Source of the DNA: Candidatus Zhuqueibacterota bacterium
Lineage (GTDB): Bacteria; Zhuqueibacterota; Zhuqueibacteria; Oceanimicrobiales; Oceanimicrobiaceae
Length of the DNA stretch: 64,000 nucleotides
Assembly: GCA_029262005.1 (NCBI GenBank)
Contig: JAJDAG010000038.1
Location: forward strand, 62,001 to 126,000
Direction: 5' to 3'
The notes below the pieces were generated by a model. It had not been told where the DNA came from, ran no database searches, and saw only the letters and a program-made list of their open reading frames with translations. The position numbers and the translations under genes are program-made. The first letter of the stretch is position 1. Each line of letters starts with the position of its first letter. This document shows positions 37,888-59,501 of this stretch, piece after piece.

Positions 37888-39261
37888 TCAGGTGGTGATT
37901 GGTTGCGTTGTAAATGTGTGGTATTCCAATTCGTTTAGGTGTTTGTTGAGAAAAACATATCCGGCGATGAGCGCGAGCAGGCAGGCGCAGAGATAACCGT
38001 ATCCAAAGAAGACATACCCCAGATGTAATGTTGCGCCTGTTAACAGGACATTGGCACCAAGGAAAACAGAGGCTACTTTGACTAACTTCGATGCCATATC
38101 AAAGTACATCATAAAGATCATAATTGTCAGCAACATCATTTGTAAAAAAACAGCAATCAGTGCCTTGTCGAGAATGATTGCACCGAGCCCGGGAAGCTTT
38201 AAAAAAGCCGCAATTTCGTCTGAAAAAAGCAGGCAAACAAGGGTGACGGTTCCCTGAATTTTAAGGAGCCCTCCGATACTTTCACGAACTGATTTGGCGA
38301 TCTCACTTTTGTTCTGATAGATTCTTGCAAGCGTATTTTTGTTCAAGATCGATTCGTAATATATGCGAAATCTGCTGTAAAAATTAGTCTCGATTTTTAC
38401 TAGAAAATATGTGTAGGCTGGAATGGTGGTCATGTAGGCGATAAACATGGCGCCATCATAGTCTGTGAACACGTAGAGCATATCGTGTACTTGCTCGCCT
38501 TTGTCGCTGAACCAAAATATTATTTTATCAACCCAAATACCAAGATTGTAGAAAAAGCCGATTGCAATAAGTTGCGGCATCTTGCCAATATACGATGCTA
38601 TTTCAAAATTGGGTGTGTCATCACTCTTAAACTCGATAAAAATACGTATCAGGAGAATAAACAGGAGTATGACCTGGCCAAATGTGTAACCGTGCAGGAA
38701 GCCCGTAAGTCCAAAGGCTTTCCCCAATGTGTATGCAGCAAAAAAGCTTATGGTTAACCCCGTTGCAAAGGCATACATGACAATTTGATAATTCTTGACT
38801 GCGCTTAAAAATATCATAAGCTGCCAGATGCAGCCAATAACAATAAAAAGCATGAGTGCGGCCAGCTTGTAGTTGAAGCCAATGTTCCAAAAGAGGAAAA
38901 ACGGCAAACCGATTATGAGCTGACAGACAATTGTGATTGTCAGTACCACAGTAAAGGTCGGCAATATCTTTCTAAACTTGCTCGCATAAATCAGGTCGGA
39001 TAGAAATCGGGTGATGAGGAGTTGGCTTAAACCAGTGGATATCAGAGAAAATGCGAATACGTAAACCACTGTGATGAGAAAAATGCTCATCTCACCACTT
39101 CTTAAGAAAGCGGCGGAAAAAATACCAAGCAAGACCAGACAGAGAATGGAAAAGAAAATCGGCCCACCTGCGATGGAAGCAGAAAAAATGACGCCACGCA
39201 GGTTGTCAAGATAGGTGTCTTTTTCAAATATCTTTCTTAGTTTGAATCCAATGCCGGCCAT
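37888..39261 (-). CDS. pelG: PelG, inner-membrane Pel polysaccharide transporter
   Basis: The 457-residue, about 12-helix membrane protein begins with the PelG-typical MAGIGFKLRKIFEKDTYLDNLRG, which I recognise from PelG of Pseudomonas. It has the MOP-flippase-like pattern of paired hydrophobic helices and a mid-protein FYNLGIWVDKIIFWFSDKG. In the characterised system PelD, PelE, PelF and PelG form the inner-membrane synthase complex, and PelG helps carry the growing glycan across. It overlaps pelF by 25 bases, so the two are translated together. It is the last gene of the locus. Confidence 0.92.
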   Translation of the reverse strand: MAGIGFKLRKIFEKDTYLDNLRGVIFSASIAGGPIFFSILCLVLLGIFSAAFLRSGEMSIFLITVVYVFAFSLISTGLSQLLITRFLSDLIYASKFRKILPTFTVVLTITIVCQLIIGLPFFLFWNIGFNYKLAALMLFIVIGCIWQLMIFLSAVKNYQIVMYAFATGLTISFFAAYTLGKAFGLTGFLHGYTFGQVILLFILLIRIFIEFKSDDTPNFEIASYIGKMPQLIAIGFFYNLGIWVDKIIFWFSDKGEQVHDMLYVFTDYDGAMFIAYMTTIPAYTYFLVKIETNFYSRFRIYYESILNKNTLARIYQNKSEIAKSVRESIGGLLKIQGTVTLVCLLFSDEIAAFLKLPGLGAIILDKALIAVFLQMMLLTIMIFMMYFDMASKLVKVASVFLGANVLLTGATLHLGYVFFGYGYLCACLLALIAGYVFLNKHLNELEYHTFTTQPITT

Positions 39262-40757
39262 GGCTCAGGTTCTCTGATATGTTGTTCATAGATTTTACGA
39301 TAATGATTGTGCAGGTCAATGCGATTGTAGAATCTGGCCACTCGTTTTCTTCCTGCTTCTCCCATGCGCTCCATCAATTCAGGTGAACGCCAAATTCGTA
39401 GAATAGCATTGGCTATTTCTTCGGAATTGGTAATGCCTGCAATCAAACCGCTTCTTCCCAACGCAATGTCTGCATCTGTTCGGCCATAGAGAAGTTCGCG
39501 GCAGGCTCCAACATCGGTAGAGACAACAGGAATGCCAAGGCTGTTCGCCTCCAGGATTACCAGTGGCTGTGCCTCGCTGATGCTGGTTAAGGTGAGTATG
39601 TCAATTTTCGGATAATATTCTTTTACATCAACTTTACCGGTGAACTCAATAAACCGCTTCAATCCCAAAAAATCGACAAGTTTTTGACATTCGTCATAAT
39701 ATGCCGGCTCTTCATCTGTGGGCCCCATAATCAAAATTTTTAGATTGTGAACTACATCGGTTACGCTCTTGCAGGCTCGTATAAACGTTTTAACATCTTT
39801 TATTGAAACAACCCGCCCCATGAAGCCCAGCACGAGTTGCTCTGGCTCTGTCTTCTCCTCGCGTTTGAGCGTGCTGAAAGTAGCGTAATCAATTCCGTTT
39901 GGGATAATTTTTAGTTTTTCAAGCGGTGCACCATCTTTGATTTGGTACCTCTGGTTGCCTTCGAATAAAGTGATAATTGCGTCAGCATTTTCGTAGCAAA
40001 TTTGACTGAACGTTGCAAACATTTTGTTCCAAAGGCCTTTGAAACGACTTTGTGACCGTTGAACTTTTACTCTGCGATCTTCTTGTTCATAAATCCAGTC
40101 AGCACGGCTAATTTCAAACCGTCTCTCCCGCGTGTAAATTCCGTGTTCGGTTAAAATTACCGGCCGGTTGTAACGCATCTTAGCCACGGCTGCCAGCAGT
40201 CCCGCGTAACCGGTCGATACAGTATGATAAATTGAAGCGCTCGGCAGGGGAGCGGATAATATTTTGAATATCGGGATATGCATGAAGCGGAAAGTCCAGA
40301 AATAATCAATAAACGATTCATCAGATGCGTTCCTTAAATATAGAGACTTCAGGATTTCCCAAGCTTCTTTTTCGCTGGGAATTGCTTCCTGCGATATCCC
40401 GCGAGTATCCGCATTGAAGAAGTTGTGATAGGCTGTTTGAAGTGCTTGCCACTTTTCTTGTCCTGCCGGACACATGTGGAATTTCTCAATATCCCCCCAG
40501 GCATCGGAGGGTAACTTTTTCTTGCGTTTTTCAGGTAAGTGCATGTCGTGCAGAAAGACGTGTTGGATATCTATCACGTTATCCGGTAATTCAAACTTAC
40601 GCTGGCAGGAGCCGTCGTCACTGGGAAGAATTACAGCGAGTGAAAATGTGAATTCCGACATGGACGATACAAGGCCGTGCACCCAACTGGATACACCGCC
40701 TGCAACATAGGGGTAAGTTCCTTCCAGGATTAAACAAACATCCGTTTTTGTTTTCAT
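39237..40757 (-). CDS. pelF: PelF, cytosolic glycosyltransferase for Pel
   Basis: The 506-residue GT-B enzyme of family GT4 begins VCLILEGTYPYVAGGVSSWV, the PelF hallmark. The C-terminal domain has KIIPNGIDYATF, LGFMGRVVSIKDVKTFI and the EX7E motif SEAQPLVILEANSLGIPVVS. In characterised systems PelF polymerises amino sugar from a UDP-linked donor at the inner membrane with PelD, PelE and PelG. There is no clear ribosome site. It lies 49 bases after the response-regulator gene and is separated from pelE by the whole pilus cluster. Confidence 0.94.
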   Translation of the reverse strand: MKTKTDVCLILEGTYPYVAGGVSSWVHGLVSSMSEFTFSLAVILPSDDGSCQRKFELPDNVIDIQHVFLHDMHLPEKRKKKLPSDAWGDIEKFHMCPAGQEKWQALQTAYHNFFNADTRGISQEAIPSEKEAWEILKSLYLRNASDESFIDYFWTFRFMHIPIFKILSAPLPSASIYHTVSTGYAGLLAAVAKMRYNRPVILTEHGIYTRERRFEISRADWIYEQEDRRVKVQRSQSRFKGLWNKMFATFSQICYENADAIITLFEGNQRYQIKDGAPLEKLKIIPNGIDYATFSTLKREEKTEPEQLVLGFMGRVVSIKDVKTFIRACKSVTDVVHNLKILIMGPTDEEPAYYDECQKLVDFLGLKRFIEFTGKVDVKEYYPKIDILTLTSISEAQPLVILEANSLGIPVVSTDVGACRELLYGRTDADIALGRSGLIAGITNSEEIANAILRIWRSPELMERMGEAGRKRVARFYNRIDLHNHYRKIYEQHIREPEPWPALDSN

Positions 40758-41229: not shown

Positions 41230-42597
41230 TTACTCCATGCTCTTTTGCATTTTGTCTATTAAATCAAAATCTTTTTTGAATAGCGTTTCGGTTTCTGAGT
41301 CTATGATGATCGTTGGCGTGATAAAAACAATCAACTCTGTTTTGGCCTTCGACGTTTTTTTGTTCTTGAATAGCAATCCAAGTAAAGGGATATCCCCCAG
41401 AATCGGTACTTTTGTCTGGCTCTGGATAATGGAATCTCTGATAAGGCCGCCAATCACAATGGTTTGACCATTTTTTATTTTTACAACTGTTGTCGCTTTA
41501 CGCGTTGAAATGATCGGTGTGCCATCCGGCGTGAAGCCGTTTTGAAAATCAGCTTTGGGTGACACGTCCAACATGATATATTCAGAATTAATGATATGTG
41601 GCTTTACACGAAGTTGAACGGTGGCATCTTTAAATTCAAACGAGGTGACCCCAAACTCGTTGAGTTTTTTAAATGGGATTTGATCGCCCACTTCAATTGT
41701 TGCTTCTTGATTATCGATAGTGACGACTCGTGGTCTGGAAAGAAGGTTCAGGTTGTTGTTCTGACTTAATGCGTGCAGCACAGCGGTCACATTTGTATTT
41801 AAGATACCGACACCGAGTCCACTGCCGACAGGAAAAGGAAACGTATCTTCCTGAGTCGGCTCTGCTTCTTCTTGCCCCTCTTCTTCCTGTTGCTGCAGGT
41901 CAAAAGATGTGCCGATTTGCCCCTTAATAGACTTCACATTTGCGGTTTTCCACAGCCATTCAACGCCCAGTTCATTGCCGTCTGTTGTAGAGACTTCTAC
42001 AATTTCCGCCTGAATATAAATTTGTTGGGTGGGCCCGTCCAGAGACTTTATCAGGCGTTCCATATCGGCCACCACATCAGGTCGTTCCTTAATAATAAGC
42101 GTGTTGGTGCGTTTGTCGGCCATGACCGCCCCGGTTTTTGAGGTAATCATTGTTTTCAAAATTTCTTTCATTGCTTCTGCGTCTGCATATTTACATCTAA
42201 TATTGCGCACAGCAGTTAATTGACCCAGGTTTTCTCTGTCTGCAACATAAAGTACATTGCCTCCCAACTCCTTGTACCCTAGCATTGATGCCTCAAGAAT
42301 AGCTTTGAATGCATCTTCCGGAGTAATATTAGTAAAATGCATGTTGACCTTGGTATCCTTGACAGACGGCGCCAACAAAAGGTTTTTCCCCAGTCGATTA
42401 GCAAGTAATTGCAGGGTATTTGTAAGAGAAACATTGTTTAAATTCAAGTCGATGGTTTCTTGAGATTGTACCTGTTGCTGAGCACCGTGAAGCAAGGCAA
42501 CATTGCTGGAGCCGATACAGTGCAGGCAGCACAGAAAGATACAAAAGTCAATGAAATAGTAGGAAGCGGTTCGTGCTATTTTTTTTAATTCATCCAT
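41230..42597 (-). CDS. pilQ: PilQ-like secretin
   Basis: The 455-residue protein is short for PilQ because it lacks AMIN domains. An N-terminal hydrophobic signal is followed by an STN/N0-like domain (LNNVSLTNTLQLLANRLGKN), an N1 secretin domain (DAEAMKEILKTMI, KRTNTLIIKERPDVVADMERL) and the secretin core with VVTIDNQEATIEVGDQIPF, NGQTIVIGGLIRD and VPILGDIPLLGLLF then ELIVFITPTII. It would form the outer-membrane pore for the pilus. An acidic Glu/Gln-rich insertion (QQQEEEGQEEAEPTQED) interrupts the middle. It starts 20 bases after pilP. Confidence 0.92.
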   Translation of the reverse strand: MDELKKIARTASYYFIDFCIFLCCLHCIGSSNVALLHGAQQQVQSQETIDLNLNNVSLTNTLQLLANRLGKNLLLAPSVKDTKVNMHFTNITPEDAFKAILEASMLGYKELGGNVLYVADRENLGQLTAVRNIRCKYADAEAMKEILKTMITSKTGAVMADKRTNTLIIKERPDVVADMERLIKSLDGPTQQIYIQAEIVEVSTTDGNELGVEWLWKTANVKSIKGQIGTSFDLQQQEEEGQEEAEPTQEDTFPFPVGSGLGVGILNTNVTAVLHALSQNNNLNLLSRPRVVTIDNQEATIEVGDQIPFKKLNEFGVTSFEFKDATVQLRVKPHIINSEYIMLDVSPKADFQNGFTPDGTPIISTRKATTVVKIKNGQTIVIGGLIRDSIIQSQTKVPILGDIPLLGLLFKNKKTSKAKTELIVFITPTIIIDSETETLFKKDFDLIDKMQKSME

Positions 42598-42617
42598 GGC
42601 GATTTCACAATGCTGGG

Positions 42618-43103
42618 TTATTCAATTTTCGGTAATTTAAGCAAAAGGTCGCCCTTAGTCGAACGCAGTTGGACTTTGTTATGGGATATCCTTATAACCC
42701 GATAGCCACCAATGATGTCGCCAACCTGGACAATTTGACCGCCTATTACCGCGGATGGCACTTGTTTTGCCCACAGAATTCCGCCCAAATGCGGGGCACG
42801 AATCTTCTTTGCTGCGGCTTTTTCTGTTGAATTAGAATTCAGCTTTGGCAAAGCAAAGGGGTCTCTGATGGCTTGCTGGGTTCCCATTGTTTTTATCAGT
42901 TTCTTTGTGATTTCAGGGTCTAGTGTTTTAATTTTTTGGAAAATTTTTAAATAGGAGTCATCGATTCTATTGTCTTTGTCATTTATCAAGAGAGTTTTGG
43001 CTGCCTTGTAGCCTTCGTTCTTACTCAGAGCACTTTTAAACAAAACGATTGCTGCAATCATGATAGTTGCCAGCATGGCAACTGTAATTATGAGTTTTCT
43101 CAA
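42618..43103 (-). CDS. pilP: PilP-like alignment-complex protein
   Basis: The 161-residue protein starts at a TTG that overlaps the pilO stop (TTGA). A single N-terminal helix (VAMLATIMIAAIVLF) precedes a linker with RDPFALPKL. The C-terminal PilP/GspC-like beta domain reads LGGILWAKQVPSAVIGGQIV then VGDIIGGYRVIRISHNKVQL. PilP bridges the inner-membrane PilNO complex to the secretin. The usual lipobox is absent, so it is anchored by a helix and not by lipid, as in GspC. Confidence 0.82.
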   Translation of the reverse strand: MRKLIITVAMLATIMIAAIVLFKSALSKNEGYKAAKTLLINDKDNRIDDSYLKIFQKIKTLDPEITKKLIKTMGTQQAIRDPFALPKLNSNSTEKAAAKKIRAPHLGGILWAKQVPSAVIGGQIVQVGDIIGGYRVIRISHNKVQLRSTKGDLLLKLPKIE

Positions 43104-43735
43104 TGTAAGATGTCCGTGTCTACGGCCAGACCGTCTGCTTGTAGCTTTAAGCTAGCCGGCGTCACGTCCAGAATTAGCTTTAACTGGCCTGTAAGCAGCT
43201 TCTCATTCTCTTCGGTGCTAAACAGGTTAAAATCACGAATCAATAGCACTTCATCAGCTGACTCTATTTGTTGAAAAAGATTTAGGATTGACGGGAATGT
43301 GCCGGAAAAATTTACATCGATGCTTACCAGTGGTGTTGCTAACGTATCCGCTGAAAATTCATCTTGACCTGCAACTTCGTCCTGAATGGATGTTTCGAGT
43401 TTCAATCCAGCGGTCTTTGCTTTCTGTTTCAGACGCGACACAAAGAACGGGATCTGTTCATTCGTTAATATGCTCGCATCAAGTTTTATGCGTTTGTCAT
43501 CGAGGAAGTCAACTTTTCGCTCCAGTCGCGCCACAATTTTGGATAAATCCATTGCGCCCAGTTCAATGTAGGTGTCGGTCATTCTCACAATGTTTTTCTG
43601 CAATTCCTGCGAGAGATTTTGGCGCGGGCTGATCAACAAATAATGAACAACCCAAACGCCTACCACGAGCCCCAGACCTGCTGCGATAAATATTGCAGGG
43701 TGATAAACTTGTATGATTTTTTTTATCCAATCCAT
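43100..43735 (-). CDS. pilO: PilO-like alignment-complex protein
   Basis: The 211-residue protein is placed at ATG 43735 (MDWIKKIIQ). A frame extension to 43777 exists. One transmembrane helix (AIFIAAGLGLVVGVWVVHYLL) is followed by coiled coil and a ferredoxin-like periplasmic domain (LVSIDVNFSGTFPSILNLFQ, DEVLLIRDFNLFST). It pairs with PilN in the inner-membrane platform. Its stop overlaps the pilP start. Confidence 0.82.
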   Translation of the reverse strand: MDWIKKIIQVYHPAIFIAAGLGLVVGVWVVHYLLISPRQNLSQELQKNIVRMTDTYIELGAMDLSKIVARLERKVDFLDDKRIKLDASILTNEQIPFFVSRLKQKAKTAGLKLETSIQDEVAGQDEFSADTLATPLVSIDVNFSGTFPSILNLFQQIESADEVLLIRDFNLFSTEENEKLLTGQLKLILDVTPASLKLQADGLAVDTDILH

Positions 43736-43808
43736 GGCAAAAAATAAAATTGATTTAAACAAAAAGCTGTGATTCAACCGACAATTTTGTCAGCAGTCGT
43801 TTCTCGCG

Positions 43809-44441
43809 TTACAGAATCAGGTCGTCCCATGAAAATTCCAGCATGAAATTATGATAATACTGTTGTCGTTGCTGGGCAACCGTCAGCCCCTGCAGGTCAA
43901 CACGAGTACTGGCAAATGAAAATGGCCTGGCTTTCTGCGTAGCAGTCAAGAATTTTTGAATCTGGCTGTCATCTTGATTTTTCAAATCCAGGAACAGGTT
44001 GCCTTTCACCATCATGACTTTTTTGTCAGGGCCAGTATAATCATTATCGTCAGGATTTTGACTATCAACAGTGACAAAGTGAATTTCCTTAAGCCAGAAA
44101 TTGCCGGGAATTGTCTCAGTCAGGGCGGTCAAACTTTCTCTGATAAAGCTGAACTCCACAGCATTGTGATATGAATTTTTGAGTTGCATACTGTATTGTT
44201 TTTGCTGCTGGTGCAGTTCAACTGCTTTCTTGAATTGTGGTGATGAGACGTCAATTTTTTTCTTAATGCCGGCTATCTGCACTTGATAGGTGTTTATGTT
44301 ATCCTGGACATTGACTAATTTTAGAAAAAGAAGCATACCGGCAATAATCCACATCGCGCCATATGCCGCGATTAGACCTGTTCTAAGGGATTCACGTTTG
44401 GATTGGGCAAGTTCATTTTGCAAAAAATTTACTTTGAGCAT
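43809..44441 (-). CDS. pilN: PilN-like alignment-complex protein
   Basis: The 210-residue protein begins with a short cytoplasmic peptide, MLKVNFLQNELAQ, the counterpart of the conserved INLLP motif that binds PilM. Then come one helix (AAYGAMWIIAGMLLFLKLV), a coiled coil and a periplasmic domain (SLTALTETIPGNFWLKEIHF). It follows the pilM stop by a single base, with AGAGGACAATAAG before the ATG, so translation is coupled. Confidence 0.84.
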   Translation of the reverse strand: MLKVNFLQNELAQSKRESLRTGLIAAYGAMWIIAGMLLFLKLVNVQDNINTYQVQIAGIKKKIDVSSPQFKKAVELHQQQKQYSMQLKNSYHNAVEFSFIRESLTALTETIPGNFWLKEIHFVTVDSQNPDDNDYTGPDKKVMMVKGNLFLDLKNQDDSQIQKFLTATQKARPFSFASTRVDLQGLTVAQQRQQYYHNFMLEFSWDDLIL

Positions 44442-44442
44442 C

Positions 44443-45534
44443 TTATTGTCCTCTTATGATTGCACCAATGCAGGGCGTAAAATATAGCCCGTCGGCATTT
44501 TCCTCTTGTTCTTCCGCTTCCTGTTCGTGAGCGTGAGGTTGTTCTAATTGATTGATCGGGTACCAAAGTTCAGTATTTATACTCAAGTGCCGCTGAAACG
44601 TATCAGCGAGTAGGTACAACTGTGCCCCGCCTCCGGTCAGTAAAATTTTCTCGATTTGGGCAACGCCTTCATTTGTTTGGAAGTAGCGAATACATTTTTT
44701 GACTTCTGCGATAAGCAGGGTGCAGTATTCTGCAAAAATTACCGGTAACTTAGAATCCTGATATGACTTCTTGTTTGCCCATTTTTTCTGATACATCTTA
44801 CGTTTCAAGGTTTCTGCTTTATTGTAAGTTATGTTGAGGTCTTCCATTATGTGTTTGGTTATATCGTTTCCACCAAGATTGATTATGTGAAAAAACGGAT
44901 CTTTTCCCGGTTGTGTGATAACACAAATCGTGTATTGTGAGCCTATCTGTACAATGGCTGTTGGCTCTGAAATGGCGTCGCTACACAAATGTTCAAAAGC
45001 ATTGTAGATTTCCAGTGCGTCCGGATCTAACACAGTGGGTTTCAGCCCGGCTCGGCTTAATATTTTCTCAACTCGCTTAACGACAACATCGGGTACGGCG
45101 CAAGCGAACAAAGTCGTATGCTCGTCATTGATTTTGTCGTTTTCAAGCACCTCACAGGCGATCTGCATTTCATCGAAATTGGCATTACAAGTCTGTCTAA
45201 GCTCATCCTGAACAAGTTCAGATAATTCTTCCTCGCTCTCCGGCGCAACGACAGTTATGCCTCTCAGTATCGCTGAGCTGCTAGGGATGGTCGCCGCTAC
45301 AAAAGAATTGGCCAGTTCGTATTTTTCTACTAATTGGCTCAGTTGCTGCACGTAAAGTTCATCCGTAATCTCTTCATATGCCTCAAGAGGGCCTTGATTT
45401 ATTAAATCCACGACCTCATGAAACAGGAGTTCGTATTTGTGGTGATGCTGTTGGACACCTATGATTTTGATGTTAGTTGAGCCTAAATCAACGCCAACGC
45501 GTATTTTTTTTGGTAGAAATTTCAAGGTCTGCAC
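44443..45534 (-). CDS. pilM: PilM-like actin-fold pilus assembly protein
   Basis: The 363-residue protein starts at a GTG at 45534. The actin/FtsA-like ATP-binding fold shows phosphate-1 VGVDLGSTNIKII, the phosphate-2/adenosine region FFHIINLGGNDITKHI, and KILLTGGGAQLYLLADTF. PilM sits on the cytoplasmic face and binds the PilN N-terminus. A His/Glu-rich stretch (PHAHEQEAEEQEENAD) near the C-terminus is not usual for the family. It is 131 bases downstream of the pilX-like gene. Confidence 0.88.
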   Translation of the reverse strand: MQTLKFLPKKIRVGVDLGSTNIKIIGVQQHHHKYELLFHEVVDLINQGPLEAYEEITDELYVQQLSQLVEKYELANSFVAATIPSSSAILRGITVVAPESEEELSELVQDELRQTCNANFDEMQIACEVLENDKINDEHTTLFACAVPDVVVKRVEKILSRAGLKPTVLDPDALEIYNAFEHLCSDAISEPTAIVQIGSQYTICVITQPGKDPFFHIINLGGNDITKHIMEDLNITYNKAETLKRKMYQKKWANKKSYQDSKLPVIFAEYCTLLIAEVKKCIRYFQTNEGVAQIEKILLTGGGAQLYLLADTFQRHLSINTELWYPINQLEQPHAHEQEAEEQEENADGLYFTPCIGAIIRGQ

Positions 45535-45665: not shown

Positions 45666-46769
45666 TTACGCCGGTGGTTCCTGCCAAAGAGTAATTTTGC
45701 GATCAGCACTCTTCCCCTTCCCTTTTCCCTTCCCTTTTCCTTTCCTTTTTCCTTTTCCCTTTTTTTCATCATCATCATCATCATCATCATCGTCACCTTT
45801 ATTTTTAAATGTGATACCCGATAGGTTTTCTATGTATTGCCGGGCATAAGTAATTTTTGTTCTATTGGTCAGTAATTTCAAGTCATCGTGGGTCACGATG
45901 GCGCCGTTGTAGGTGCAATTTGAACCGCTTATTTCAAAGTCGTCGTGACAATAAACAAAGCCATTAATGACAACGTTGCTTGCGCGGCCTTCAAAGTCAT
46001 TTTTAATAAGAGCCGCTGGAGAAGTTGGCGGCACTGCATTGATCTGTATGTTGTAGCCGCTGAGTACAACATCTTTTTCACTTACAAGGGTGCCATTGAT
46101 AACCACATTCGAAGTAATTCGCACCCCCTTTTTAAAATACCAGACACCTGTGTACGGACTTTTCCTCGAATCAAGTGTCTTTTGGGAACTGAAGTAGTGT
46201 CTTGAGGCAATGGCCGCAGCCTTGAATAGATTCCAGTTGACATGTGGGGTTTGGATATTGGTCCCATAAGAAGCTGTGCCATTTAGAGTGAATCTTTTGA
46301 CGTTTTTAATTTTCTTATTCGCGTGAATATCCCCATTTACAGTGCCGGTTGTGTAAGAGCCAAAGTGGATATCTGCTTTTGCCATCAGCGCGTATGGCCA
46401 CTTGTTTTCATCGGCTTCATCAAGAGTGACAATTATGGTCTTTAGGGCGCCTTTCGCACTGCCGACAGCGGTAATTTGTTTGAGACCAGCGTTGTAGTTA
46501 ACTTTCACGCTTGCGTCGGAATAGGTTGCTGCTGCGGCAGAGACTTTGTTTAGACGCCATAACGCTTTATGAATCCCGGCTTCCGCATTGTAAAACGCTT
46601 TTATTTTGTTGGCATGCTTGCTTGTGTTCAGCAATTCAAAACCACCAATGCTGATCATGGTTAAGCCGAGCATGGTGAAAATAGCGAAAAAGATGAGAAC
46701 AAGACCCAGGATCGTGCCTTGTTGGTTATGCAAAACGGTGCAGGTTCTCGCGTTCTTGCCGGATTTCAT
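45666..46769 (-). CDS. PilX-like minor pilin with poly-Asp and Lys/Gly tail
   Basis: The 367-residue protein has a PilX-type N-terminus: a prepilin-like leader, then GTILGLVLIFFAIFTMLGLT and an FYNAEAGIHKALWRLN block. The middle shows parallel beta-helix-like repeats (KKGVRITSNVVINGTLVSEKD). Near the C-terminus nine aspartates in a row are followed by a ~20-residue Lys/Gly tail and a short end, KITLWQEPPA. The tail is encoded by a pure purine tract. Its ATG overlaps the pilW-like stop (ATGA). It may sit at the pilus tip; the charged tail is a striking addition. Confidence 0.78.
   Translation of the reverse strand: MKSGKNARTCTVLHNQQGTILGLVLIFFAIFTMLGLTMISIGGFELLNTSKHANKIKAFYNAEAGIHKALWRLNKVSAAAATYSDASVKVNYNAGLKQITAVGSAKGALKTIIVTLDEADENKWPYALMAKADIHFGSYTTGTVNGDIHANKKIKNVKRFTLNGTASYGTNIQTPHVNWNLFKAAAIASRHYFSSQKTLDSRKSPYTGVWYFKKGVRITSNVVINGTLVSEKDVVLSGYNIQINAVPPTSPAALIKNDFEGRASNVVINGFVYCHDDFEISGSNCTYNGAIVTHDDLKLLTNRTKITYARQYIENLSGITFKNKGDDDDDDDDDEKKGKGKRKGKGKGKGKGKSADRKITLWQEPPA
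45709..45792. repeat. Homopurine-homopyrimidine tract and CAT trinucleotide repeat in a pilin gene
   Basis: Positions 45709-45767 are pure pyrimidine on the plus strand (59 bases). Positions 45767-45790 are eight CAT units, followed by CGTC. On the coding (minus) strand these give the Lys/Gly tail and the poly-Asp run. Such tracts slip during replication and can form triplex structure, so the tail length may vary between cells. The frame stays open for unit-of-three changes in the CAT part. Confidence 0.85.
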
Positions 46770-47455
46770 GACGGTGCATCGCTTAATTTAAGATGGCTTG
46801 CGTTCTTGTATTTTATTGACAAACCAGCCGCACTCACAATTGCTTGACAATTCATAACGATACGGATATTTTTTCTGTCGGCCCGCTTCCAGGTGTTGTC
46901 GCAAACTGGGAACTCACCGGCCTCGCCGCCGTCTGCTTTACTGCTTCTGTTTCTGAAGGTATCGATAGCAGTGATGCTGATCGTGCGACTGTTCTGGTTC
47001 AATGTCAGGCGTGTTTTAATGGCATTTCCATACACGGAAAATATCAGTTTGGTGACTTTGTTTTTGACGAGCGTGGTTTCCCCTTTCCCATCTAATACCT
47101 TAAAATCTGAATTGTCCTTGTAGAATATTCGCCAACTGTTATCCGGGAAAACCACTTTCAGGCAGGTGCCGGATGATTGGGCAGCCTGGCTGCTTGAATA
47201 GGCTGAAAAGGACGCATAAATGGCGTGCTTTTTGTGGGCTCCTTGGCGGATATTCTCAGAAAGAACCATTTGAATCAGCGAAAAGTCCTGCTGCAAATTG
47301 ATATTCTTTGTTTCTTCATTGATGTGTCGGAACGATTCTGTAACAATAACCCCTATGCTGGCCAGAACCACACTGCCAAGGAGCATTGCCATGGTCAGCT
47401 CGATTAAAGTAAATCCTGCCTGGGAGCGTGTGAATGTTGTTCTGAAATTTCGCAT
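46766..47455 (-). CDS. Minor prepilin, PilW/GspJ-like
   Basis: The 229-residue protein has a short basic leader and the prepilin site GFTLIELTMAMLLGSVVLA (cleavage after Gly, Phe+1, Glu+5). A long amphipathic helix follows (LQQDFSLIQMVLSENIRQGA), then a C-terminal soluble domain with three or so Cys. It is typical of minor pilins that prime assembly. It starts two bases after the pilV-like stop and overlaps the pilX-like start, so the three minor pilins are translationally linked. Confidence 0.82.
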   Translation of the reverse strand: MRNFRTTFTRSQAGFTLIELTMAMLLGSVVLASIGVIVTESFRHINEETKNINLQQDFSLIQMVLSENIRQGAHKKHAIYASFSAYSSSQAAQSSGTCLKVVFPDNSWRIFYKDNSDFKVLDGKGETTLVKNKVTKLIFSVYGNAIKTRLTLNQNSRTISITAIDTFRNRSSKADGGEAGEFPVCDNTWKRADRKNIRIVMNCQAIVSAAGLSIKYKNASHLKLSDAPS

Positions 47456-47457
47456 GG

Positions 47458-47952
47458 TTAATTGCCAAAATCACTTCTTGCAGAACTAAAAGAAATGCTT
47501 TTATCCTTTCCCCAGGAAATTTTTACTGTGTAAGTTTTGTAATCAACAACATTACCATCGCGGTCACGGCGACCTGTTCCGTCTGCAGGATCATCGACAA
47601 GACGAACAGTGGTTGCTCTTGTACCGGTAATATTCCCCAACGGAATAACTGTGGCAGTTTCATTCAGAGCCGTTGATATTTGCACATAACTCAACGCGGC
47701 AAGTGCTTCCATCTGCTGATGCGCGGCAGCTACCGCCAGGCGCTTTGATTTTTGTTGCACGATGGTTGATTTCGGCAAAGTGAAATAATTCATTCCACCA
47801 ACCATTATGACCATAAAAATGAAAATCGCAATCATGGCCTCAATCAGGGTCATGCCGTGTTCGTTGGAGGTTTGGATGAAATGCTCAAGGCGAGCGGCGG
47901 ACTCGAAATGCCTGAAAGTGCCCTGATGTTGTATGTTGTAAGAGTGCTTCAT
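47458..47952 (-). CDS. Minor prepilin, PilV/GspI-like
   Basis: The 164-residue protein has an unusually long leader of about 33 residues before the prepilin site EHGMTLIEAMIAIFIFMVIM (Gly at -1, Met at +1, Glu at +5). The C-terminal domain ends ISWGKDKSISFSSARSDFGN. The start at 47952 is uncertain. Members with this shape initiate the pilus together with PilW and PilX-type proteins. It is preceded by a hairpin that may lower its expression relative to the major pilins. Confidence 0.78.
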   Translation of the reverse strand: MKHSYNIQHQGTFRHFESAARLEHFIQTSNEHGMTLIEAMIAIFIFMVIMVGGMNYFTLPKSTIVQQKSKRLAVAAAHQQMEALAALSYVQISTALNETATVIPLGNITGTRATTVRLVDDPADGTGRRDRDGNVVDYKTYTVKISWGKDKSISFSSARSDFGN

Positions 47953-48224: not shown

Positions 48225-48626
48225 TTAAAAGTTTTTCAGAGTACCGGTTTGGTCAATTTGCCTTTTTATACCGAGAGCTTCACCCGCACCGGTTGCCTGG
48301 ATAATGTAGGTGGTGGTACCTTTTTTATAGTATTTGTAATTTGTATAATTGAAATACTTACCGGCCAAATCTGCGGCGGACACATCAATACCAATTGTCG
48401 ATACAACCTTAGCAACCCCGACTGGAATGGCAGCGTGTTCTGCGTAGTAAACCCGAATCGCGGTGCGAATTGTTCCCAGCGCTGCGTCTGCTTCACTGGC
48501 CTTAGCCCTTTTGGTGTAGCCCGTATAAAGCGGCACAGCCACGGACGCGAGAATACCGATGATAACAATGGTGATCATCAATTCAACCAGGGTAAAGCCG
48601 TGTTGTGTTTTGGTGAACTTTTTCAT
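48225..48626 (-). CDS. pilA: Type IV pilin, second of a tandem pair
   Basis: The 133-residue prepilin has leader MKKFTKTQHG, cleavage before Phe, then the N-methylated helix FTLVELMITIVIIGILASVA with Glu5. The head contains YTGYTKRAKASEADAALGTI, AIRVYYAEHAAIPVG and ends RQIDQTGTLKNF. No cysteine pair is present, unlike many pilins. It is about 92% identical (10 differences) to the pilin at 48727. It is translated from its own ribosome site (AAAGGAG upstream). Confidence 0.9.
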   Translation of the reverse strand: MKKFTKTQHGFTLVELMITIVIIGILASVAVPLYTGYTKRAKASEADAALGTIRTAIRVYYAEHAAIPVGVAKVVSTIGIDVSAADLAGKYFNYTNYKYYKKGTTTYIIQATGAGEALGIKRQIDQTGTLKNF

Positions 48627-48726
48627 GATTTGACTCCTTTTAATAAAATGAAATGATAGTTTGATAACCTTTGTCTGTAAATTTGTTTCGATAATATCCA
48701 GGAGCCCGGCATGGCAGGTGCATTGC

Positions 48727-49128
48727 TTAAAAGTTCTTTAGATTACCGGTTTGGTCAATTTGCCGTTTGATGCCGGCAGCTTCACCCGCGCCGGTTGCCT
48801 GGATAATGTAGGTGGTGGTACCTTTTTTTGTGTACTTGTAGTTTGCGTAATTGAAATATTTACCGGCCAAATCTGCCGTGGACACATCAATACCAATTGT
48901 CGTAACAATTTTCCCCTTCCCGACTGGAATGGCAGCGTGTTCGGCGTAGTAAACGCGAATCGCGGTTCGAATTGTTCCCAGCGCTGCATCTGCTTCACTG
49001 GCCTTAGCCCTTTTGGTGTATCCCGTATAAAGCGGCACAGCCACAGACGCGAGAATACCGATGATAACAATGGTGATCATCAATTCAACCAGGGTAAAGC
49101 CGTGTTGTGATTTGGTGAACTTTTTCAT
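48727..49128 (-). CDS. pilA: Type IV pilin, first of a tandem pair
   Basis: The 133-residue prepilin has the same leader and helix as its neighbour. Head differences are concentrated in GKGKIVTTIGIDVSTADL versus GVAKVVSTIGIDVSAADL and in single positions after YKY and at the end. AGAGGAG precedes the ATG. It is probably the major subunit or one of two interchangeable subunits. Transcription would enter from the 86-base gap after pilC or from its own promoter there, in which I saw no sure sigma-54 site. Confidence 0.9.
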   Translation of the reverse strand: MKKFTKSQHGFTLVELMITIVIIGILASVAVPLYTGYTKRAKASEADAALGTIRTAIRVYYAEHAAIPVGKGKIVTTIGIDVSTADLAGKYFNYANYKYTKKGTTTYIIQATGAGEAAGIKRQIDQTGNLKNF

Positions 49129-49214: not shown

Positions 49215-50411
49215 TTAGTGCATTATGCTGCCCATTTGAAAAATCGGCAGATATAAGGCAATAATTACCACGAGAGCGACTGCCCCCAACCCAATCATCA
49301 ATATGGGTTCAATGATGGAAGAAAGCCCATCTACTGTTGTGTTAAGTTGTGCGTCGTACATGTCGGCAATTTTAATTAACATGATATCTATTGAGCCCGA
49401 TTGCTCCCCAACACTAATCATTTGTACCATCATCGAGGGGAAAATTGCCTCTTTGGACAAAAGTGTATTGAGTGTTGCGCCTTCCATAACTCCCGTTCTC
49501 AGTCTCTTGAATGCCTGATTGAATACTGTGTTTTCTGCGGTGCTCCCGGCGATTTCGAGAGAATCAACGACTTGAACACCGCTTTTCATAAGCACGCTTA
49601 GAGTCCGGCAGAAACGAGATAAGGCAACCTTGGCTATCATTTCACCAGCCACCGGCAATTTCAACATAAAGTTGTCTAAATAATATCGGCCTGATTCTGT
49701 TTTCTTGAATTTTTTGAATAAAAATACAAGTATGACAATCAGACCAACCTCCAGAGGTAGGTTGTCTTTGGCTTTTTCGCTGATTGAAACGAGAATTCGG
49801 GTGGGCAAAGGAAGTTCAGCGCCAAAGCCGGCAAATGTCTCTTTGAACTTTGGAATGAGACCAAAAACGATTCCAATGAGGACCAAAAAGAAAAAAGAGA
49901 AAACAAATTTCGGGTAGGATGACGCCGATTTTACTTTTTTGGCCAAGTCATCCTGAGTCTTTAAATAGGAAGATAATTGTTTAAGAACAGTGACCATTTC
50001 ACCACCGATTTCACCAACATGAACCATTGAGATGAAAAGAGAAGAGAAGGCGCCTTTGTACCTGGATAATGCTTCCGTTAAGGTTGCTCCGGCGTTTATG
50101 TCCTGCACGGCCGTTGCACCTATTTTTTTGAAATCTTTGGAATCTGTTTGTTCAGAGAGCACTGAAAGTGCAGTCATTAAAGGAACTCCGGCATCGAGCA
50201 GAGTAGCCAGTTGATTGGCAAAGATATATTGCTCCTCTGTCTTGATTGGTTTTATTTGATTTTTAGAGGCTCTCAGCGCGTCCAGCATGGTTTTAAGCGA
50301 AAACTTCCGTACTTCCTGAGTTGTTTGACTTTCAGTCTTTTTGTTAACGGAAGTTTGTCGCTTTCGCTTGAATTTAAGTGAGTGGCCGGCTGAAATTGAA
50401 ACGTTTGCCAT
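49215..50411 (-). CDS. pilC: PilC/GspF-like inner-membrane platform protein
   Basis: The 398-residue protein has two repeats of the T2SF fold: FANQLATLLDAGVPLMTALS, MVHVGEIGGEMVTVLKQLSS and, in the second half, FCRTLSVLMKSGVQVVDSLE, MVQMISVGEQSGSIDIMLIK. Three transmembrane helices are visible. The N-terminal ~50 residues are basic and Ser/Thr-rich. PilC is the rotor-like platform on which the ATPase acts. It is 63 bases after pilB. Confidence 0.92.
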   Translation of the reverse strand: MANVSISAGHSLKFKRKRQTSVNKKTESQTTQEVRKFSLKTMLDALRASKNQIKPIKTEEQYIFANQLATLLDAGVPLMTALSVLSEQTDSKDFKKIGATAVQDINAGATLTEALSRYKGAFSSLFISMVHVGEIGGEMVTVLKQLSSYLKTQDDLAKKVKSASSYPKFVFSFFFLVLIGIVFGLIPKFKETFAGFGAELPLPTRILVSISEKAKDNLPLEVGLIVILVFLFKKFKKTESGRYYLDNFMLKLPVAGEMIAKVALSRFCRTLSVLMKSGVQVVDSLEIAGSTAENTVFNQAFKRLRTGVMEGATLNTLLSKEAIFPSMMVQMISVGEQSGSIDIMLIKIADMYDAQLNTTVDGLSSIIEPILMIGLGAVALVVIIALYLPIFQMGSIMH

Positions 50412-50474
50412 ATTTGTGAACCTGTATTTATTGACGTGGAAAAGTTCTTTTACTTCCCCTCGGTGTTTGCCCGC

Positions 50475-52061
50475 TTAATAACTATCGGAATTAACTCTCT
50501 TGACTTCATCCAGGGTCGTTATACCTGCTTTTGCTTTTCTTAAACCGTCCATAAACAATGTTTCCATGCCCAACTCCAGGGCGACTTCAGTTATTTCTTC
50601 AGCATTTTTTCCAGCTATGATCATGTTTCTCATCTGGTTGTCCAGGTAGAAAAATTCAAATATAGCCAATCGCCCCCAGTACCCCGTACCGCCACATTTT
50701 GAACAGCCTTTGCCTTGGCTGAAGATAGGCTTATCCATGTCTTCTATTAAGCTACCTAACTGTTCACGTTCCGCTTTGCTAAGTTCATAATTTTCTGCAC
50801 AATGAAAGCAGGTGCGCCGGACGAGTCTTTGCGCCACGATTAGCAAAGTTGAAGAAGCGATCAGATGCTTGTCAATTCCCATATCGATGAGGCGCATTAT
50901 GGTTGCGATGCTATTGTTTGTGTGCAGCGTGCTCAAGACAAGATGCCCGGTTAGCGCCGCACTAATCGATATTTCTGCAGTTTCAAGATCTCGTATTTCT
51001 CCCACCATAATGACATCCGGGTCTTGCCGAAGAATTGCACGAAGGCCAACGGCAAAGGTCAGCCCAAGGTGCGGCTTGGCCGGCGTTTGCGTAATTCCTG
51101 GCAAACGATATTCTACCGGGTCTTCAATCGTCACTGTGTTTTTTACGGGAACATTGACGTAATTCAACGCTGAGTAAAGTGTGGTGGTTTTGCCGCTTCC
51201 TGTTGGCCCGGTAACGAGAATCAGACCATGCGGTTCTACCAGAGTTTCTTTGAAGCGCTTTGTAGCATTTTCTTCCAGACCCAGATCGCGGACTTCCAGT
51301 GACCGATTGTCTTGATCCAGTATTCGTAAAACCACTTTTTCACCGTAAATGGCCGGCAGCGTAGATATACGAAAATCTACGGCTCTACCAAAAACATTGA
51401 GTTTGCTGCGACCATCCAATGGGATACGTCGCTCAGCAATATCCAAAGCGCCAAGTATTTTGATTCTTGAGATAATACCCGATTGCAGTCTTTTTGGAGG
51501 GGTGGCAATGTCACGCAGGGCCCCATCTATTCTGAAGCGAATGCGGAGCTCTGTTTCCTGGGGTTCTATGTGAATGTCACTGGCCCTTTCCTGGATAGCC
51601 TGTAACAGGATGGAATTGACGTACCGGATTGCCGGGGCGGCATCTGCTTCATCTTTGAGCAGTTCGATGCTGATGTCTTCTGTCTGGCTATCCTCATTTT
51701 CTATGATATCGACTTGGCTTGGGTCATCGACACCCTCCAGAAACCCGGTGTTTTTAAGGGATAGACGGCTGAGCCATTCGTCTATCTGCGCCTCAGGCGT
51801 ATAATATATTTCTGGCTCAAACTTGGTTTTCGAACGTATGGCCTCTTCCGCCAGAATATCAAACGGATTTGCCATTGCCACTTTAAGTGAGTCCTCTACA
51901 CGCTCAAAAGGAATCAGTTTGTATTTAACTGCTATCTCAACAGGTATCAGGTTGAGTACATCGGGGCTGATGAACCCTAGCTCGGAAAGGTCTATCTTTT
52001 TGACCTCTTCCTCCTCAACCAGAGCGCCAATGATGTCGAAATTTTGGTTTTCGTTTTCCAT
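50475..52061 (-). CDS. pilB: PilB/GspE-type assembly ATPase
   Basis: The 528-residue hexameric ATPase drives pilus extension. It has a T2SSE N-terminal domain (LGFISPDVLNLIPVEIAVKY), Walker A GPTGSGKTTTLYSAL, Asp box TIEDPVEYRLPGITQ, Walker B RQDPDVIMVGEIRD, His box LTGHLVLSTLHTN and a zinc site from two CxxC pairs (TCFHCAENY and GCSKCGGTGYWGR). The RLG-type motif of c-di-GMP-binding MshEN domains is not seen at the N-terminus. It is the first gene of the pilus block. No second ATPase (PilT) is present. Confidence 0.93.
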   Translation of the reverse strand: MENENQNFDIIGALVEEEEVKKIDLSELGFISPDVLNLIPVEIAVKYKLIPFERVEDSLKVAMANPFDILAEEAIRSKTKFEPEIYYTPEAQIDEWLSRLSLKNTGFLEGVDDPSQVDIIENEDSQTEDISIELLKDEADAAPAIRYVNSILLQAIQERASDIHIEPQETELRIRFRIDGALRDIATPPKRLQSGIISRIKILGALDIAERRIPLDGRSKLNVFGRAVDFRISTLPAIYGEKVVLRILDQDNRSLEVRDLGLEENATKRFKETLVEPHGLILVTGPTGSGKTTTLYSALNYVNVPVKNTVTIEDPVEYRLPGITQTPAKPHLGLTFAVGLRAILRQDPDVIMVGEIRDLETAEISISAALTGHLVLSTLHTNNSIATIMRLIDMGIDKHLIASSTLLIVAQRLVRRTCFHCAENYELSKAEREQLGSLIEDMDKPIFSQGKGCSKCGGTGYWGRLAIFEFFYLDNQMRNMIIAGKNAEEITEVALELGMETLFMDGLRKAKAGITTLDEVKRVNSDSY

Positions 52062-52452: not shown

Positions 52453-53505
52453 TCAGTTCAGCACCCAGACTTCTTCCTCGGTCCACCACCCTGTGACCGG
52501 TGTAAAATTGTCCGGCAGATTTTGGTAGATATGTATCCTTTTGCAGATGCTTTTCACTTCATCAAAATTATGTGTTTCATAGTATGCTTCGGCCAGCCAG
52601 AAGTGTGTTTTTGGGTTGCCCGGTTCCAGCGCCACGGCTTCCTGCAAGACCGTGACAGCCTTTTCCACTTTTCCGGTGTTCAATAAAGCGCGGCCATATT
52701 CCATAATGCCTTGCGGATGCTTTGGGCGACAGACAAGAAAAGTCTCATACTGTTCAATGGCAAGTGTATAGTAATGTTGTTTAATGGCAGCATCCAATAC
52801 CCCCAGGTGGCAATACAGGTCGTAGGCTCGTGCGAGTCCAAGAATCGCATCCGCGTCATCCGGCTTGATTTTAACGGTGGCGCGATTCTGTCTTATGCGG
52901 TCGATTACTTTGTCTTCCATATCAATGAGTGCGGTTGCTGCGAGTACCTTGGTATCGGAAGTTGCATACTTCACGACTTCCTTGAGAATCGAAACTGAAT
53001 TTCTGGTGAGAATGTTTGACAGTTTGTTGATGGTGTTTTCTTCAAGCAGGCGGTCGTTGGTTTTGAGTATATCCCGATAAGCGTCAATATCCATTTCGTC
53101 CCGTTTTATGAGGGCTGCCTCTCTGGTGATGTTGTGCATCAGTAATTTGTAGCGTTCCGGCATGGCTTCATCGTCCATCTCGAAATAATCGATGGGTTCG
53201 AATTTTGACCGATTCGCCAAAATGAGTGCTATGTACATGCCCAGCACCCCGTAAAAAGGTAAGACCAGGGAAAGTGCAGCGGCAATATAGAGAAAGTTTT
53301 GACCCATGTGGAAATGCGCCAGACGCATGCGCTTGAACACCAGTATTGCAGTGACCACAAATGCTGCATGTAGACAAAATGCCAAAACTTTGAGCATGCC
53401 GCCGCCGGCAAGTAGCCAGTATACCGCCAGCAGTTCAAGGCAGAGTAACATGAGCAGTGCCAGGTGGTATATTAGGTTTGACGGCAGTTGTTGAGTTTTA
53501 GTCAT
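52453..53505 (-). CDS. pelE: PelE-like membrane/TPR protein
   Basis: The 350-residue protein is placed at ATG 53505 (a TTG two codons upstream is also in frame). Two or three N-terminal membrane segments (HLALLMLLCLELLAVYWLLA, FLYIAAALSLVLPFYGVLGM) are followed by a cytoplasmic region with TPR-type helices (GIMEYGRALLNTGKVEKAV, PKTHFWLAEAYYETHNFDEV). This is the PelE layout. In the known complex PelE supports PelD and the PelF synthase. It is 36 bases after pelD, the same neighbour order as in Pseudomonas. Confidence 0.85.
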   Translation of the reverse strand: MTKTQQLPSNLIYHLALLMLLCLELLAVYWLLAGGGMLKVLAFCLHAAFVVTAILVFKRMRLAHFHMGQNFLYIAAALSLVLPFYGVLGMYIALILANRSKFEPIDYFEMDDEAMPERYKLLMHNITREAALIKRDEMDIDAYRDILKTNDRLLEENTINKLSNILTRNSVSILKEVVKYATSDTKVLAATALIDMEDKVIDRIRQNRATVKIKPDDADAILGLARAYDLYCHLGVLDAAIKQHYYTLAIEQYETFLVCRPKHPQGIMEYGRALLNTGKVEKAVTVLQEAVALEPGNPKTHFWLAEAYYETHNFDEVKSICKRIHIYQNLPDNFTPVTGWWTEEEVWVLN

Positions 53506-53541
53506 TGGCAATTCATTACTTTTAATTCAATTTTTTGCGAG

Positions 53542-55023
53542 TTATTCTTCAATCACAATCGGCTCATTTCCTGGTTCGCTGCTGTCTTTGGTTTTATTTA
53601 GTAGAAAGTGGATATCGTCGAATACCGGTGTTATTTCTCGTTGTCCCTCTGCTGCAAGGCGCTCTTCAGCTGTTCTCATCAGGCTTTCGTAGCCACCTTC
53701 TGACGGTTGCAGTACACTGAGTCCGACTTCGAATTCAAGCAGAGTTTCCCTGTCTTCAAACGGCCGCATACCATAATTCACAATTTCATTACAGAGGTCT
53801 TCGGTGATTTTTTCGGATTCCAGGCTGTTTTGTCCGGGCAGAATGATGCTAAACGTGTTATCGTCTGCATACTTGGCAATGATATCGACATCGCGTAAAG
53901 TGTGGTCAAAGATCCAGTTCAGAACCACCAGCACGTTCTTGCGCTCTGAATCATTCATCTCATCAAAGTGTTTGATGCGCAGCAGAAGCAGCGACAATGA
54001 GGAGTGGAAGCGTTTGGCGCGGGATATTTCGTATTGAAGTCTTTTTTGGAAATACGGATAGTTGTAAGCCCCGGTGATCTCATCAGCAATGTTTTTGTCT
54101 TTAAGTCGCTCGAATTGCATGGCCTGGTCAGCAACAATCGATACCCAGTAGGCCAGCACTTCGAAAATCCGTACACTGTTGCTGTTGTAGTCAAAAAATG
54201 GGATTCTTTCAATGTTGATAATGCCAAGCAGTGTTTCGTCTTTTCGTAATATCGGGGCAGCCATGATTTGTTCAATTGCGTCGAATTCGTTGTGATCTTC
54301 CGCCAGCATTTGGTTGATAGTCACCAGACTTTTGTTTTTGACCACTTCTCCCATCATGCCAAAATCTAAATCAACTACGTCTGGCAAACCATCCTCATAA
54401 TTGCTGTTTCTTGCAACCATTTCGAGTTTATTGTTGCGGAGCAAATAGACTGAGGAGCGCGTTACATTGAGTTGGTCTGCCAGCAAGTCCGGTATGTTCT
54501 GATATAGTTGCAGCGGTTGCAACTGTTCGAGATTTGTCAGTTTTTCAAATAGACTGACCATGGTTGTAGCCTGAAAGGCCACTCTTTTGTCCAGTTCATG
54601 TTTGGAGTCGCAAAGGGCTTCATGTTCGACACTCAGGCACTCAAGGCCCCTGGCTTTGTCCTCATACTTTTTTTGTAGGTTGTCATGCATTTTTTTGTGC
54701 CAGCCCCGGATTTCACCGAGAACACCGCCCGTGAGGATGAAGAAAAATGGCAAGTTGTACGGGCCATGTGGGAAAGAAAAACGGCTGAACTCGGCTGAGG
54801 CTGTCCCTGAAGCAAGCGCAACGTAAGCCACGGCAGCAAAACTTCCAGCGAAAATACCTTGCAATGTTCCATAACGGACAGCGATGAGCAAAACAACAAT
54901 CCAAAAAGGATGCGGGGTTATATGCTCGAATGCCGTTGAATTTTTTATCAGAAAGAGGTCAATGGCCAGTAAGATCGCAAATCCAAGAAGCGTTTCGAGA
55001 ATGAAGAAATATTTTCGTGACAT
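53542..55023 (-). CDS. pelD: PelD, c-di-GMP receptor of Pel synthesis
   Basis: The 493-residue protein is taken from ATG 55023 (MSRKYFFILE). Four N-terminal membrane segments (ETLLGFAILLAIDLFLI, FWIVVLLIAV, GIFAGSFAAVAYVALA, LPFFFILTGGVLGEI) are followed by a coiled coil, a GAF domain (about 160-300) and a degenerate GGDEF domain. The inhibitory-site motif RxxD is intact as Arg377-Asp-Val-Asp380, while the active-site GGDEF position reads YADDN, so it should bind but not make c-di-GMP. This matches PelD, which turns on Pel polymerisation when loaded with c-di-GMP. Confidence 0.93.
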   Translation of the reverse strand: MSRKYFFILETLLGFAILLAIDLFLIKNSTAFEHITPHPFWIVVLLIAVRYGTLQGIFAGSFAAVAYVALASGTASAEFSRFSFPHGPYNLPFFFILTGGVLGEIRGWHKKMHDNLQKKYEDKARGLECLSVEHEALCDSKHELDKRVAFQATTMVSLFEKLTNLEQLQPLQLYQNIPDLLADQLNVTRSSVYLLRNNKLEMVARNSNYEDGLPDVVDLDFGMMGEVVKNKSLVTINQMLAEDHNEFDAIEQIMAAPILRKDETLLGIINIERIPFFDYNSNSVRIFEVLAYWVSIVADQAMQFERLKDKNIADEITGAYNYPYFQKRLQYEISRAKRFHSSLSLLLLRIKHFDEMNDSERKNVLVVLNWIFDHTLRDVDIIAKYADDNTFSIILPGQNSLESEKITEDLCNEIVNYGMRPFEDRETLLEFEVGLSVLQPSEGGYESLMRTAEERLAAEGQREITPVFDDIHFLLNKTKDSSEPGNEPIVIEE

Positions 55024-55040
55024 GGTGTTTTTCCCAGTGT

Positions 55041-55055
55041 ACAACAAATTGTTGT
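55041..55055. promoter_or_regulatory. Palindrome immediately upstream of pelD
   Basis: ACAACAA-A-TTGTTGT is a perfect 7+1+7 palindrome, 18 bases upstream of the pelD start codon. It could be an operator or an RNA element around the ribosome site. No regulator is assigned. Confidence 0.4.
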
Positions 55056-55077
55056 TTCTTAACCGTTTTTGTTTCCT

Positions 55078-55166
55078 GGAGTGCAATGCTTTGGCTTGCA
55101 ATTTTCATTGAAACAAAGCAAAACTAAAATTTTGCACTCCGAAGTTTCTCACATCTGAATAGTTGC
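55078..55166. repeat. Direct repeat with terminal inverted repeats, pelB side of pelD-pelE
   Basis: This copy is bounded by GGAGTGCAA (55078-55086) and TTGCACTCC (55132-55140), perfect inverted repeats 45 bases apart, and continues with GAAGTTTCTCACATCTGAATAG. Its relative is at 52222-52310, where the inverted repeat has decayed. The two copies flank pelD-pelE. Confidence 0.75.
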
Positions 55167-55205
55167 GTTTTTTTGTGTTTGATTTCCGGTTTCTCCGTGC
55201 TGAGA

Positions 55206-58541: not shown

Positions 58542-59440
58542 GCGTCTTCTATCGTATGGAAGTAAATTTTATCTAAATTTTTGCTGCTTATGAACGGTAC
58601 AAATTCGTGCTCCCTTGCCAGTTCGATTACAGTCTTTATCCGCGCATCGTTATGCTCGGTGAAATAATCAAGGGTCAGCACTTGCAGGCCGTATTTTTTT
58701 TGCATCTTCTTCAGTTGTTTGAGTTGCGCCTGATAACTGAACTCGGGCTGGACAATGGTCGTATTTTTATCAAAATCAATGCTGGTAAACACCGATTCAG
58801 CCACAACGCCATCGATAGCATCGCCAAACTCACCCAACATGCTAAATCCTCTGTTTGCTACCAGAATGACATCTGGATATTGTTTGCGCATAGCGCGAAT
58901 GAGTCGCACCATGGCCGCCTGTGCACCGGGATATTTTCCGGGCTGATGGTATTTTTCCAGGTACTCGGCAGTGTCGATGGTGTCAAGGAACAACCCGTCA
59001 AATCCATTTTCCAGGATCGGTGGGATGATTTTTTCAAGAATGAAACGGTGCCACGCCTTCTCTCGCACATCGATCATGTGACTGTCCCAATTGGGATTTT
59101 TCTCCAATACCCATGGCTCATTGGCTATCTCACGCCAAAACCAGCGATAATTGCCGACTTCCGCCAGGCTGACATACCCGAGCAGGATCGTTTGCGTTTG
59201 CTGCACCGTAGCCAGGTCCGGATGAGAATCTGCATCGAGGACTGCCAGATCGAACTTGCTGACATCATTTGGCGATACGCTGGCGTTGTAGACACAAACC
59301 CAGTTTCGCACCCATGCAATCGGAGAAGCGTTTCTTGTACTGCGCCTGGCAGAACATCCTAACAGATACATGATTGACACTGCTATTGTGCTGTAATGAG
59401 TAATTGTTGCAAATTTCCGTGTCACTATTGTTCTTAACAA
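58532..59440 (-). CDS. pelA: PelA glycoside-hydrolase domain as a separate lipoprotein
   Basis: The protein is about 302 residues. Candidate starts are a TTG at 59440 and a GTG at 59425; neither has a good ribosome site. A hydrophobic N-terminus ends in a lipobox (MYLLGC). It is a TIM-barrel of the PelA hydrolase (GH166/GH114-like) family: GYVSLAEVGNYRWFW, GFDGLFLDTIDTAEYL with Asp153, and GVVAESVFTSIDF with Glu215, the candidate catalytic pair. In Pseudomonas this domain is the N-terminal third of PelA and trims Pel. Here it is its own gene, placed after the deacetylase gene. Confidence 0.86.
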   Translation of the reverse strand: MLRTIVTRKFATITHYSTIAVSIMYLLGCSARRSTRNASPIAWVRNWVCVYNASVSPNDVSKFDLAVLDADSHPDLATVQQTQTILLGYVSLAEVGNYRWFWREIANEPWVLEKNPNWDSHMIDVREKAWHRFILEKIIPPILENGFDGLFLDTIDTAEYLEKYHQPGKYPGAQAAMVRLIRAMRKQYPDVILVANRGFSMLGEFGDAIDGVVAESVFTSIDFDKNTTIVQPEFSYQAQLKQLKKMQKKYGLQVLTLDYFTEHNDARIKTVIELAREHEFVPFISSKNLDKIYFHTIEDACK

Positions 59441-59501
59441 TTCAGCCGCAAAAAGAATGTTAAGCGAACGTTTGCAGCCCGCATTGGCGTAATTGCTCCG
59501 G

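Follow-up and report, generated by a model that had tools for sequence, protein, structure and literature searches.

The closest described counterparts of the locus reported here are the pel operon of Pseudomonas aeruginosa (pelABCDEFG) and the minor pilins of T4P. Pel is partly deacetylated GalNAc that interacts with extracellular DNA (PMC12022489, PMC6307706), and the deacetylase of P. aeruginosa PelA has the catalytic residues H526, D528, D530, H600, H604 and H761 (PMC12022489). In the main text of a survey of pel operons, pili are mentioned once and secretins never (PMC7112194). Among minor pilins, FimT has a flexible C-terminal tail whose arginines bind DNA (PMC8897410), and the PilX type is represented by the PilX_N family (PF14341).

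Here we analysed a window (the whole stretch of 64,000 nucleotides from one contig of a Candidatus Zhuqueibacterota genome) in which PelA (as two genes), PelB, PelD, PelE, PelF and PelG are recognisable (Table 1). Unlike the P. aeruginosa operon, this locus has a T4P set (PilB, PilC, PilA x2, PilV/W/X and PilM-Q) between pelE and pelF (37888-61589, minus strand), a split PelA and no identified PelC. In the direction of transcription, the deacetylase and hydrolase halves of PelA, a PelB-like TPR protein, a PelD-like GAF-GGDEF protein and a PelE-like protein are followed by PilB, PilC, two PilA, PilV, PilW and PilX, and then by PilM, proteins in the N/O/P positions, the secretin, a response regulator, PelF and PelG. 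We call this arrangement a gene run; the shared strand and mostly short gaps would be consistent with an operon. The deacetylase half of PelA (59502-61589, minus strand) aligns to PelA chain 9cgy (E=1.6e-89) and in that alignment keeps the catalytic motif set intact (HIDGD, ASHSYAHPFYW and YYHFYSG). With a PelA-type deacetylase that retains its catalytic residues, and with PelB/D/E/F/G in the same gene run, the premise of the initial annotation that Pel is cationic after deacetylation is sound for this locus.

The division of PelA into hydrolase and deacetylase genes (58532-61589, minus strand) is also seen in G005 (L077), and G012 (L074) has a separate deacetylase gene. The two tandem PilA-like genes of the window are nearly identical. 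Outside the gene run, a protein encoded at 30991-32928 (plus strand) matches the middle domain of hydrazine synthase alpha (PF18582, E=1.2e-18). The window contains no Rfam families.

Table 1 Features of the pel-pilus gene run and of the PilX-like gene (window positions)
Feature	Position	Strand	Basis or detail
PelG and PelF	37888-40757	(-)	PelG match; NF038011 PelF, 486 bits
PilM-like, PilN/O/P-position proteins and PilQ-like secretin	41230-45534	(-)	PilM_2, Secretin; N/O/P assigned from position and size only
PilX-like minor pilin gene, 367 aa	45666-46769	(-)	Homologues; comes after PilV-like and PilW-like genes
Terminal strand of pilin core, residues 355-367 ADRKITLWQEPPA	45669-45707	(-)	W362 invariant in 9/9 sequences
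59-base purine tract, coding strand	45709-45767	(-)	Encodes E335-K353 (EKKGKGKRKGKGKGKGKGK) and first two bases of S354
G-quadruplex consensus GGGAAGGGAAAAGGGAAGGGG	45714-45734	(-), coding strand	Sole one in the window
Poly-Asp, residues 326-334, GAC(GAT)8	45768-45794	(-)	Single (GAY)7 of the genome
Putative exchangeable passenger domain, residues about 122-325	45795-46406	(-)	Weak bactofilin/DUF7305-like signals, sub-threshold Pfam
N-terminal hydrophobic helix and pilin core, residues 1-118, AFYNAEAGIHKALW segment	46416-46769	(-)	9-sequence alignment, including passenger-less ones
PilW-like and PilV-like minor pilins	46766-47952	(-)	N_methyl motif
Two tandem PilA-like major pilins	48225-49128	(-)	N_methyl; PilA/GspG models
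PilC-like (T2SSF) and PilB-like ATPase (T2SSE, MshEN)	49215-52061	(-)	Domain matches
PelE-like, PelD-like (GAF-GGDEF), PelB-like TPR, PelA hydrolase half and PelA deacetylase half	52453-61589	(-)	

The 367-amino-acid protein encoded beside PilV/W, two PilA, PilB, PilC, PilM and the secretin is described here as PilX-like, an assignment that is based on its place in the order PilV-PilW-PilX, on its N-terminal segment and on homologues. It has this gene order, an N-terminal helix and an AFYxAEAGI segment in common with PilX-type minor pilins, and differs from them in its passenger domain, its charged insert and the absence of a curated Pfam match; no prepilin N-terminal signature was found in the protein itself. 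Searches for homologues gave matches in 12 of 59 relatives (E<=0.001), and the homologues P0002 and P0004 match PilX_N at 0.0034 and 1.7e-4, both below the cut-off. A profile search returned no PDB relative, and the quality of a single-sequence AlphaFold model (mean pLDDT 41.6) is too low for disorder or exposure to be read from it.

The nine consecutive Asp residues, the eight-unit CAT repeat and the 59-base pyrimidine tract described in the initial annotation are all present, the Asp run being encoded by one GAC and eight GAT codons and the pyrimidine tract being, on the coding strand, an unbroken purine run. The tail that they were said to form is real as an Asp block followed by a Lys/Gly block, but it is internal: 14 residues (SADRKITLWQEPPA) come after it before the stop codon and, because these hold the conserved last strand, the tail should be read as an internal insert. 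The insert comprises 28 residues (326-353) between LSGITFKNKG and KITLWQE, of which 10 are acidic and, after these, 11 are basic. As judged from the alignment, it sits in the linker that connects the passenger with the final strand of the pilin core. The spacing from a conserved Gly (G318 here) to the Trp of that strand is 43 residues here versus 14-17 in relatives, where the spacer is rich in G/S/T and is without charge blocks; none of the aligned relatives has the insert. Its densest stretches contain 10 D/E per 12 residues and 11 K/R per 20 residues, against maxima of 7 and 9, respectively, in 29 other genes of the window.

The Trp of the last strand (W362) is conserved even in homologues without the passenger. 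The strand reads KITLWQE here and TIATWED, QIFTWSE, KIVHWKE or QVVEWNE in full-length relatives; PilX proteins of 129 and 135 amino acids, from which the whole middle domain is absent, still carry it (NIAAWEEL and KVQKWQDW), and it therefore belongs to the pilin core. By comparison among homologues, the middle domain behaves as an exchangeable passenger. The G003 copy of this domain is joined to a PilW-like protein and ends LQGVDFN-stop, near the position at which the insert of the window protein starts, and an unrelated module fills the passenger slot in a second locus of G002. The occurrence of the passenger on a PilW-like protein rather than on PilX in G003 (L008, 1504-2646, minus strand) amounts to domain shuffling between minor pilins.

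The DNA of the insert is repetitive. The whole 5.77 Mb genome has a single (GAY)7 and a single purine run of at least 40 bases (20 overlapping matches, all within the one 59-base run). Because the next longest purine or pyrimidine run in the window is 19 bases and runs in 200 first-order Markov simulations of the window composition reached 22 bases at most, the 59-base tract is more than chance would produce. TRF reports arrays with periods of 3 (10 copies) and 12 (4.0 copies; score 68, 89% match). All seven Gly codons of the insert are GGA or GGG, against a background of 34% in the 29 other genes of the window (p=5e-4). Among the nine poly-Asp codons, eight are GAT, against a background of 57% (p=0.011 for eight). 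The Gly codons, together with a periodicity of 6/12 bases in the insert DNA, argue that the insert grew by repeat slippage, in agreement with the initial annotation of the tract as slippage-prone. Such a codon bias points to growth of a repeat in the DNA, not to selection at the protein level alone.

The wider locus was compared in relatives, in which neighbouring genes other than PelF were named by eye from translated open reading frames. In G003, T4P genes run into PelF-PelG; in G002, PelB/D/E are followed by T4P genes and then by PelF, about 13 kb past pilX. Together with the window genome, these make three genomes of the family with a mixed pel-T4P run. By contrast, the pel genes are uninterrupted in G012 and G005, which have their PilX homologue on another contig, and G021 has a PilX homologue and no PelF match. 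The pel-pilus linkage therefore characterises some members of one family. The passenger domain also occurs in T4P clusters without pel alongside (G021 and G012) and is therefore independent of pel. The mixed run, which makes a link between pilus and Pel testable in three genomes regardless of the role of the insert, may be a more interesting observation than the insert.

We consider it reasonably probable that the insert, which is in frame and specific to this lineage, is a flexible and nearly self-neutral linker that was gained in a PilX-like minor pilin via slippage. Its position, the conservation of the strand that follows, its absence in relatives and the repeat structure of its DNA are observed; its disorder, its surface exposure and its effect on the pilus are inferred. 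Replication slippage at GAT triplets and GGRAAR hexamers would have grown a low-complexity insert of 28 residues, which would most likely form a disordered acid-then-base linker that lengthens the tether of the passenger; should the basic half bind DNA, or the acidic half deacetylated Pel, this would be a secondary effect particular to the lineage. Slippage could thus place a strongly charged linker in a conserved pilin, at a spot that accepts passengers, with the fold unbroken. Two different adjacent charged repeats, both unique in the genome, nevertheless exceed a single slippage accident, which leaves room for selection.

The initial annotation had suggested instead that the insert is an electrostatic bridge, in which partly deacetylated Pel would attach to the Asp block, and DNA or the anionic cell surface to the Lys/Gly block, the pilin thereby joining pilus, Pel and extracellular DNA. 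The pel genes in this gene run, among them one for a PelA deacetylase predicted to be active, the known interaction of Pel with extracellular DNA and the precedent of FimT speak for this putative role, and binding of Pel or DNA by the blocks would create a direct physical link from the pilus to the polysaccharide encoded around the pilus genes. The bridging role is not supported by the comparison with relatives: G002 and G003 have the same mixed locus without the insert, the pel run of G005 is uninterrupted and lies on a different contig from its PilX, and the passenger is found without pel in G021 and G012. Moreover, the acidic block lies directly beside the basic one, and their charges (-10/+11) can offset each other. 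The likeness to FimT extends to a basic and probably flexible region near the C terminus of a minor pilin, but the arginine-rich tail of FimT is terminal and contains GRxR as a conserved motif (PMC8897410), whereas the region here is an internal Lys/Gly repeat that follows an Asp block and is not conserved in relatives; there is no GRxR, and all aligned relatives lack the insert. We therefore regard the polysaccharide-DNA bridge as unlikely and a flexible charged linker as more likely. A stronger version, in which a pilus machine built into the pel run would use a tunable acid/base repeat linker in PilX to grip both its own cationic Pel and extracellular DNA, at a strength tuned by the number of repeats, seems quite improbable. 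In the literature searched, which was mostly outside subscription journals, we found no published report of a charged-repeat PilX.

The same repeats could alternatively form a contingency locus, in which cells would differ in tract length, and the length and charge of the linker would be tuned in this way. Tandem repeats of the kind found at phase-variable loci are present in the pilin gene (in one genome of the genus), and both the eight GAT units and the hexamer/12-mer purine repeat can change in frame, so that gain or loss of GAT units or hexamers would alter insert length in frame; the G-quadruplex consensus in the purine tract could favour instability. As in the contingency loci of Neisseria pili and adhesins, short tandem repeats lie within a gene for a surface structure, but the 3- and 6/12-base units here change length in frame, with no off switch, and a single genome is concerned. 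The repeats are also short and imperfect, and a frame change in the tract deletes the conserved last strand; useful variation would therefore have to be in frame, and on/off switching would be costly. On this evidence, we judge a contingency locus to be improbable. That the repeat is an assembly or sequencing artefact is very improbable: the genome is a draft of 205 contigs, but the frame is kept across the tract into the conserved strand. We give least credence to recoding, in which an in-phase A_AAA_AAG heptamer (codons 335-337) and the G-rich RNA downstream of it would cause a -1 frameshift and yield a shorter pilin. The -1 frame has a stop about 20 codons on, but comparable A-rich heptamers occur 14 times among the roughly 13,000 codons of window genes, RNA folding at the tract is unremarkable, with no stable stem predicted (z -0.33), and the -1 product would be without the conserved strand. 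Ribosomal slippage as a special feature of this gene was rejected because the A-rich heptamer is common in window genes.

Sporadic runs of this kind elsewhere in the phylum speak for the reading of the insert as a slippage-grown linker: of 81 genomes, 18 contain (GAY)7 and 8 contain purine runs of at least 55 bases. KGKG-coding patterns in G046, G028 and G030 fall in no recognisable pilin gene. The draft genome G073 has a run of roughly 100 G or more (L088, G073:C158:6378-6480), probably a sequencing artefact. Within the same family, two unrelated proteins that look exported also contain poly-Asp runs (L082, 382-1860, and L083, 1-1893, both minus strand). One, from G005, looks like an outer-membrane protein and has D9; the other, from G007, is a repeat protein with D10, in which the sister repeats read GDDDLG.
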